Both the position numbers and the translations under genes were made by a program. Shown here piece by piece: positions 21,833 through 22,858 of a stretch of 64,000 nucleotides of DNA. Position 1 is the first letter of the stretch. Each line of letters begins with the position of its first letter. Under the pieces are notes generated by a model. It did not search any database, was not told the DNA's origin, and was given only the letters and a program-made list of their open reading frames with translations. This DNA comes from Bartonella tamiae Th239 (GTDB lineage Bacteria > Pseudomonadota > Alphaproteobacteria > Rhizobiales > Rhizobiaceae): NCBI RefSeq assembly GCF_000278275.1, contig NZ_JH725147.1, positions 1,743,063 to 1,807,062 on the forward strand, given 5' to 3'.

Positions 21833-22858
21833 TCATGATATATTTATGCGCTCTATCTCCACGCCGACTGCTGCTGGACCCAATTCTAATTTATCAACGC
21901 GTACAATGACCTTTTGAACAAGTGGATAGGCTAGGATAAAAGCAGCTATACGTTCAGCCAATGTTTCAACAAGTTCAACATGCCCAAGTGAAACGAGTGT
22001 TTTTATTCCATCAAGTATAAGATCATAAGAAAAAATATGACGCATATCTTCTGGATTTCTTGTCTGTCGAACCACGTCAGCAATAATATTAAAACGGACT
22101 TTTTGCTGACGTCCATATTCTCCCCGATAAGCACCAATTTCAATGGGCAAAATAAAATCCTCGACGATTATTCGATCTGTTCCAAGTGTATTTTTTTCAG
22201 CAATCTCATGATTTTGCAATTCGAAAGGAACAAGTGCACGAATAAGTCTATTGGTTTCACTATCACCAAAATGGCCAGGTTTTATTGGTTTTTTGATACA
22301 AAACCCAAGCCAATTTGGTGTAAAAGGAAGTAATCTGGGAATATCAGGGGCTTCTATATCTCCAAGAAAACCCGTTTTTAAGCCGATTTTTTGCGTTTTA
22401 CTTAAAACATCGCCAATTTCTGAAATATCATGAAGACTTAATAAAGGGCTTTCAAAATTGTTATATTGCCAAATAAGCCCATTAAAACCATTTTTTTCAA
22501 TGTTTTGAATAAAGGTGAAATCAGCATTTTGCATCATATTCACCATAGCAATTGTTTGATAATAATCAAAATGAGACTGAAATGTAGCCAATTCTTTCTG
22601 ATCATCATTGTTAAAAGATAAGGATAAAACAACAGCATCGGGATTAAAAATTTTAAAAGCAGAATGCTTATTTGCTATTTTCTTATTGCATATAAGCCAG
22701 AGATGCAGTTGCCTATTACTATAATCACTTAATAATTCACGAAGAAATTTTTCATGCACAACAGCATCATCAGCGGAAATTAAAATAATATCCGCTTGCG
22801 CTTCAGCTGCAATTTGTAAATCTTCACATGATTGAATATGTACCAACAATTTTGACAT
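21833..22858 (-). CDS. Fusion: degenerate MfnB-like (DUF556) barrel + dihydroneopterin aldolase (FolB)
   Basis: A 341-aa protein, three times the usual length of FolB. Residues about 227-341 are a complete dihydroneopterin aldolase domain with VEDFILPIEIGAYRGEYGRQQ, the conserved VETLAERIA and the lysine in VRVDKLELG. It would cleave 7,8-dihydroneopterin in folate synthesis. Residues 1-215 align in pattern with (5-formylfuran-3-yl)methyl phosphate synthase (MfnB), a TIM barrel. The lysines expected in the VKxP, IKVG and second-half motifs are replaced (ADIILISADD, PDAVVLSLS, LIWQYNN), so this half is probably catalytically dead. Other folate genes are not adjacent. Confidence 0.82.
   Translation of the reverse strand: MSKLLVHIQSCEDLQIAAEAQADIILISADDAVVHEKFLRELLSDYSNRQLHLWLICNKKIANKHSAFKIFNPDAVVLSLSFNNDDQKELATFQSHFDYYQTIAMVNMMQNADFTFIQNIEKNGFNGLIWQYNNFESPLLSLHDISEIGDVLSKTQKIGLKTGFLGDIEAPDIPRLLPFTPNWLGFCIKKPIKPGHFGDSETNRLIRALVPFELQNHEIAEKNTLGTDRIIVEDFILPIEIGAYRGEYGRQQKVRFNIIADVVRQTRNPEDMRHIFSYDLILDGIKTLVSLGHVELVETLAERIAAFILAYPLVQKVIVRVDKLELGPAAVGVEIERINIS

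Follow-up and report, generated by a model that had tools for sequence, protein, structure and literature searches.

The fusion gene and its neighbourhood

The window, the 64,000-nucleotide stretch of Bartonella tamiae Th239 analysed here, carries on its minus strand (21833..22858, read from 22858 down to 21833) one uninterrupted open reading frame with an ATG start, which encodes a protein of 341 residues. Residues 1–215 (22214..22858, minus strand) form a barrel, which is assigned to MfnB (4-HFC-P synthase) from the predicted structure, Foldseek and hhalign and lacks the catalytic residues of that enzyme. Residues 227–338 (21845..22180, minus strand) form the FolB (dihydroneopterin aldolase) domain, assigned from Pfam, fold matches and conserved residues. 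They are connected by a linker (residues 216–226; 22181..22213, minus strand), which is in part of low confidence, with pLDDT <50 at residues 213–222. The list of open reading frames also has a plus-strand frame inside the gene (22037-22333).

The gene is single-copy in its own genome (G000; 2.25 Mb, 2 contigs). Homologues with the same architecture occur at 17 loci of Bartonella (including B. apis, B. apihabitans and B. choladocola), Phyllobacterium and Mesorhizobium. Within Bartonella the gene is found in 8 of 37 genomes including its own, and the other 29 give no match at E ≤ 0.001. The gene order in the window is secDF, a CPA2 antiporter, an MprF-like membrane protein, the fusion and a putative TerC/CBS-type protein. 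The four Bartonella loci set against it (L023, L027, L029 and L032) show this order as well, except that no match to the CPA2 antiporter was found in the flank of L032. Around the fusion in L034, L039 and L214 the flanking genes of the window have no match. None of the four window neighbours examined is a folate or C1 gene. Since 8 of 37 genomes of the genus carry the gene and its flanks are matched in the compared Bartonella loci, the fusion is not a matter of chance. With barrel and FolB in one frame, and with its FolB inside the MfnB-associated clade described below, the protein belongs to the family of MfnB–FolB fusions.

The barrel is that of MfnB and lacks its catalytic residues

Direct matches of the barrel to MfnB families are weak. 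The Pfam family PF04476 matches residues 112–186 at E 2.3e-4 with 21.4 bits, below the gathering score of 22.4, and the MfnB-type NCBIfam model NF002576 matches at E 7e-12 with 45 bits, below the cut-off of 297. However, hhalign of nine Bartonella barrels (this one included) against 15 intact fused barrels gives a probability of 99.75% and E 3e-27 over 184 columns, and one of the intact relatives, P0002 from genome G371, aligns to the MfnB protein MJ1099 at E 1.5e-26.

The AlphaFold2 model, made from 16 aligned sequences (mean pLDDT 78, pTM 0.66), has eight beta/alpha repeats at residues 3–209, followed by FolB. When the Foldseek matches of the predicted model are re-examined, MJ1099 is the top structural match of the barrel (Z 19.7, rmsd 2.7, 202 residues aligned) and PdxJ is the next fold (Z 17.5); ranked by the E-value of Foldseek itself, MJ1099 has several barrels roughly level with it. 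Other TIM-barrel enzymes considered as the identity of the barrel (PdxJ, KGPDC and PRAI) all score under MJ1099 and were rejected. Homology to MfnB is thus settled by the intermediate homologues together with hhalign and the predicted fold, and by profile and predicted fold the barrel is MfnB. The preliminary description, which saw an MfnB-like TIM barrel joined to FolB, is borne out by the single frame of 341 residues, the Pfam match of FolB, hhalign and the predicted fold; the structure prediction that it proposed for residues 1–215 gives a barrel closest to MfnB and no other fold.

Four catalytic positions were compared, which are K28, K86, D140 and K144 of P0002 and correspond to K27, K85, D151 and K155 of MJ1099, the offset of the PDB chain being 7 residues by hand count. 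K85 and D151 of MJ1099 we take to be among its essential residues. All four positions are lost in the window protein. By alignment and hhalign, S28 (22775..22777, minus strand) replaces the Schiff-base lysine K28, V77 (22628..22630, minus strand) replaces K86, Q131 (22466..22468, minus strand) replaces D140, and K144 stands opposite a gap. Lys27 is reported to form the Schiff base, with two lysines and two aspartates essential (PMC6604932), and PMC11365854 has Lys155 as a catalytic residue in one legend and as a substrate-binding one in its discussion. Restoration of the lysines by a shifted alignment was considered and rejected, for the hhalign profile alignment gives none. The earlier claim that the catalytic lysines are gone therefore stands.

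Hence, the window protein shares with MfnB (PF04476; MJ1099, PDB 4U9P and 4RC1) the predicted barrel fold and a lineage traced via intact fused relatives, but it has none of the four catalytic residues, and its genome has no match to the methylofuran formyltransferase or Fae. Intact MfnB–FolB fusions of Rhizobiaceae and of family f5 (Mesorhizobium LHD-90, G371, G091) have the same architecture and the same sequence motif discussed below; unlike the window protein, they keep all four residues.

The fusion is the only FolB of the genome

The FolB domain is matched by PF02152 at residues 230–336 with E 5.2e-15 and 56.4 bits, above the gathering score of 31.8, and stays below the equivalog cut-off of TIGR00525 (40.1 vs 72.15 bits). 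In the predicted model it has the FolB fold, with Z 15.9 and rmsd 2.3 over 114–115 residues aligned to 7su7 and 6ojo. E247, Y278, E298 and K323, which we take to be the catalytic Glu, Tyr, Glu and Lys of FolB, are intact, and the corresponding residues are kept in all 69 rows of the family survey below. The domain is probably active. A second FolB in the genome was considered and rejected, as there is one PF02152 match at E ≤ 0.001. The fusion is the sole FolB of this genome, which also has folE, folP and folK.

The same 8 of the 37 Bartonella genomes have one FolB match each and folK, whereas the other 29 have no FolB match; folP is present in the same 8 among the 25 Bartonella genomes searched for it, and folE in all 41 genomes searched. 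A table in PMC1971073 also lists Bartonella henselae without FolK and FolP. In the B. tamiae genome folP (L137:721-1566) shares bases with folK (L137:1542-2054) and no folB separates the two, whereas in G041, G043, G046 and G049 folP, folB and folK are consecutive by their coordinates. The FolB of the window differs in type from the FolB of these operons: it lies in the MfnB-associated clade and has an N-terminal barrel, unlike the canonical FolB of Rhizobiaceae, with which it shares fold and catalytic-type residues.

This type of FolB is tied to one-carbon gene sets

The MfnB family is present in 92 of 397 genomes of the order, and at 29 of 30 MfnB loci of the order a FolB is found, fused or nearby, within the few kb examined. 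Eleven genomes of g102 (family f11) have divergent MfnB-family matches with E 1e-13 to 1e-19, and G238, also of g102, has an ordinary one with E 3e-55. Among the known MfnB proteins is Orf22 of Methylorubrum, named in PMC8141765.

The tree of FolB comprises 141 rows and 118 columns and takes in 15 of the 30 canonical loci; many of its forks are unresolved and its bootstrap is not settled. In it the fused and the MfnB-adjacent FolB form one clade (96/93). Nested in it is a clade of fused proteins (99/99) that holds the fused FolB of Rhizobiaceae, of f5 and of L077 (f42), while two in-frame fusions of family f31, L085 and L088, fall outside this nested clade. The 15 canonical FolB of Rhizobiaceae are separated from the MfnB-associated type by a branch with 100/99 support.

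Genome G371 shows the surroundings of an intact fusion. There an 18.5-kb stretch, with the fusion close to one of its ends, holds the methylofuran formyltransferase (its gene ~16 kb from the fusion), a methylene-H4MPT dehydrogenase domain, MCH and Fae, and also an amidohydrolase (putatively FhcA-like), ATP-grasp proteins and a CitG-family protein. Fusion and formyltransferase are ≤25 kb apart on one contig in 30 of the 46 genomes with an intact fusion.

FolB is joined to other enzymes in known systems, such as the eukaryotic FolB–FolK–FolP described in PMC4224340 and the FolK–FolB of Bifidobacterium longum described in PMC1971073. In these fusions the partners belong to folate synthesis, unlike the one-carbon cofactor synthesis enzyme of the window fusion. 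No paper on an MfnB–FolB fusion was among the top matches listed from the open-licence PMC literature.

Barrel state goes with the methylofuran pathway in the survey

FolB is found in 287 of 297 Rhizobiaceae genomes, with scores that fall into two classes. The survey sample consists of 69 genomes of 33 genera whose best PF02152 E-value is worse than ~1e-21, G244 being added. The fused-protein profile is matched in all 69, and 68 carry the fused FolB type; G542 has a different, stand-alone FolB. Among these 68 genomes the methylofuran formyltransferase is present in 46 and absent in 22, and Fae gives the same split. Neither has a match at E ≤ 0.001 in the B. tamiae genome, nor in the congeners G007, G013 and G020.

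All four MfnB residues (KKDK) are found, in one copy, in 46/46 formyltransferase-positive genomes and in 0/22 negative ones. The 22 negative genomes comprise 21 decayed barrels and one genome without a barrel (G513). The association has a Fisher p of 4e-17, which ignores relatedness. Both states occur within each of five genera (g188, g196, g200, g214 and g223). On the tree of FolB, parsimony gives 8 changes over 78 rows, and the three supported independent pairs are all concordant (p 0.25), with absence of the formyltransferase (label 0) assumed from the genomes searched for all Bartonella rows except G000 and G013. Barrel decay recurs across the family in relatives without the one-carbon pathway. 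The suggestion that the barrel is a relic of a C1 pathway gains support from this co-occurrence and from the fusion in the C1 cluster of G371.

Ten genomes with two FolB matches were left out of the survey sample. Four of them (G462, G484, G679 and G699), included in no count, combine a FolB that scores better with one of the fused type. Three of these four have the complete set of MfnB residues, and in G484, where the match begins at model position 33, the last three are present. Small genomes keep the fusion too. Six genomes of 1.0–1.5 Mb (G602, G437, G657, G535 (g147), G517 and G501) have open frames of 304–356 residues, in which the fused type is the only FolB match and the barrel, weakly matched in G517 and G501, has no catalytic residues.

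Two cases show this FolB type without a whole barrel. In G513 (L215) FolB belongs to the fused clade but stands alone; directly upstream of it lies a frame that resembles a short-chain dehydrogenase, and there is no barrel. In Bartonella choladocola (L030:5726-6753) residues 1 to ~80 of the barrel lie in another frame, the homologue match begins only at residue 92, and the frame remains open through FolB and the later half of the barrel. Unless these are sequence errors, the whole barrel may be dispensable, and dependence of FolB on it is not absolute.

Selection and a retained motif in the decayed barrels

Selection was estimated as dN/dS (omega) by the Nei–Gojobori method; because many pairs are saturated, only pairs with barrel dS <0.5 are quoted. 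Omega of the decayed barrel is 0.08–0.31 in six such pairs, which are not independent (five Bartonella, one Phyllobacterium), compared with 0.02–0.18 in eight pairs of intact barrels and 0.00–0.04 for FolB in the same six decayed-barrel pairs. Selection on the decayed barrels thus looks relaxed yet present, and these close pairs are under purifying selection. In g214 omega is 0.57–0.61 for the decayed barrel and 0.27–0.42 for FolB.

One stretch of the barrel stands out, the motif EAPDIPRLL at residues 169–177 (22328..22354, minus strand), which is kept in decayed and live barrels of the fused clade. The D and R of E-x-P-D-[IV]-P-R are present in 21/21 decayed and 46/46 live barrels, compared with 4/10 (D) and 1/10 (R) of unfused MfnB, in which the E and the first P are found in 0/10. 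The ten unfused proteins were hand-picked, nine from the order-wide MfnB loci and L022 from the genus search; L084, L087, L092 and L095 among them come from f31, the family of the fused L085 and L088. The strongest columns of the decayed barrels, in P0002 numbering, are D182 and R185 (21/21) and P184 and G176 (19/21), then E179, P181, L170 and L221 (18/21), and they fall mostly in the E-x-P-D-[IV]-P-R-L-L stretch. The motif is also found in the f5 fusions and in L077, and it is missing from the f31 in-frame fusions L085 and L088; it therefore marks one fused clade and not fusion as such. It is kept without catalysis, and we suggest that it is a putative contact surface.

The decayed barrel might be a passive relic, an N-terminal tail on FolB whose deletion has so far been prevented by its position behind the start codon and the upstream signals. 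The missing barrel of G513 and the frame break of B. choladocola agree with this, as do the high omega of g214 and the mean conservation of decayed barrels, which is 0.35 vs 0.66 in FolB. Nevertheless, we consider it unlikely: the six low-divergence pairs are constrained, the D and R of the motif persist in every decayed barrel, the barrel is predicted to fold, and it is retained in four of the genomes of 1.0–1.5 Mb and weakly matched in two more.

Even less probable, in our estimate, is that the barrel catalyses some new reaction or serves as a ligand-binding regulator of FolB. Such a function would go with the purifying selection and with the glycine of the MfnB GSL loop (G176 of P0002), which is one of the retained columns above. 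But 21 of the 22 best-conserved columns listed for the decayed barrels match intact P0002 and the other is a V to L change, so that no new shared polar residue is seen in them. That the barrel still works as an MfnB, its catalytic lysines having moved to other positions, is hardly credible, for although single residues persist in the decayed barrels (K28 in 2/21, K86 in 2/21, D140 in 7/21; the column-28 lysine of G013 and G436 may be a chance alignment), neither K144 nor the conserved arginine R197 occurs in any of the 21, all four residues are kept in 0/21, profile alignment gives no substitute lysine, and these genomes have no formyltransferase or Fae match.

Proposed history and role of the fusion

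We suggest, with a probability of about 0.7, that the fusion is the sole FolB for folate synthesis in this genome, derived from a methylotrophy-type FolB, and that its MfnB half is now non-catalytic and probably a structural domain. The proposed sequence of events is the following.

The starting point would be a FolB that stands beside MfnB, or is fused to it, in the tetrahydromethanopterin/methylofuran gene sets of the order. In the lineage of the window protein this one-carbon-type FolB would have taken the place of the canonical FolB of the folP-folB-folK operon and, as the only dihydroneopterin aldolase of the cell, would supply the pterin of folate.

With the loss of the one-carbon pathway FolB would still be required. 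The fusion would thus be retained, and only the active site of MfnB would decay.

The barrel would still fold after this decay and probably acts as a docking or oligomer-shaping domain via the side that carries E-x-P-D-I-P-R-L-L. More specifically, fusion may have made FolB structurally dependent on the barrel, the motif face docking on either FolB or a neighbouring barrel and thereby shaping the oligomer, with the barrel turning from enzyme to scaffold upon loss of the methylofuran pathway; we hold this version tentatively, at somewhat below even odds. The idea of a structural relic in the preliminary description is supported in part. An omega well under 1 and the retained motif speak for a structural role, whereas the deletion in G513 and the frame break in L030 speak against a strict need for the barrel. 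The regulatory role that it offered as an alternative gains no support here but may still hold. The recurrence of decay in the family and the difference of this FolB from the operon type go beyond that description.

Arguments on how an enzyme turns into a non-catalytic structural domain often draw on one case at a time. In this family one two-domain protein occurs in the intact and in the dead state, five genera hold both, and the likely cause of decay, absence of the user of the cofactor, can be read from each genome. For those Bartonella species that have retained folP and folK, the analysis also proposes that the dihydroneopterin aldolase step is carried out by a one-carbon-type FolB and not by that of the usual operon. 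If our suggestion is true, the family presents a natural experiment in the origin of pseudoenzymes via fusion-made dependence, repeated several times, and the change from enzyme to scaffold extends down to genomes near 1 Mb.

Decayed copies in Phyllobacterium

Last, we note that the Phyllobacterium genomes G571, G713 and G714, of which the latter two were reached via named loci, have one intact and one decayed copy each and keep the pathway. G712 (L036, plasmid p_3) has a decayed copy only, with no formyltransferase but with a Fae homologue. These decayed copies speak against a simple one-to-one rule of barrel state and pathway, and the decayed fusion and Fae may form a separate module in this genus.

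As for their arrangement, in G571 two frames (L213:3652-4134, plus strand, and L213:4141-5259, minus strand) bring the decayed copy and a Fae homologue tail to tail, 6 bases apart, and a Fae of similar score adjoins the decayed copy in G712, G713 and G714.
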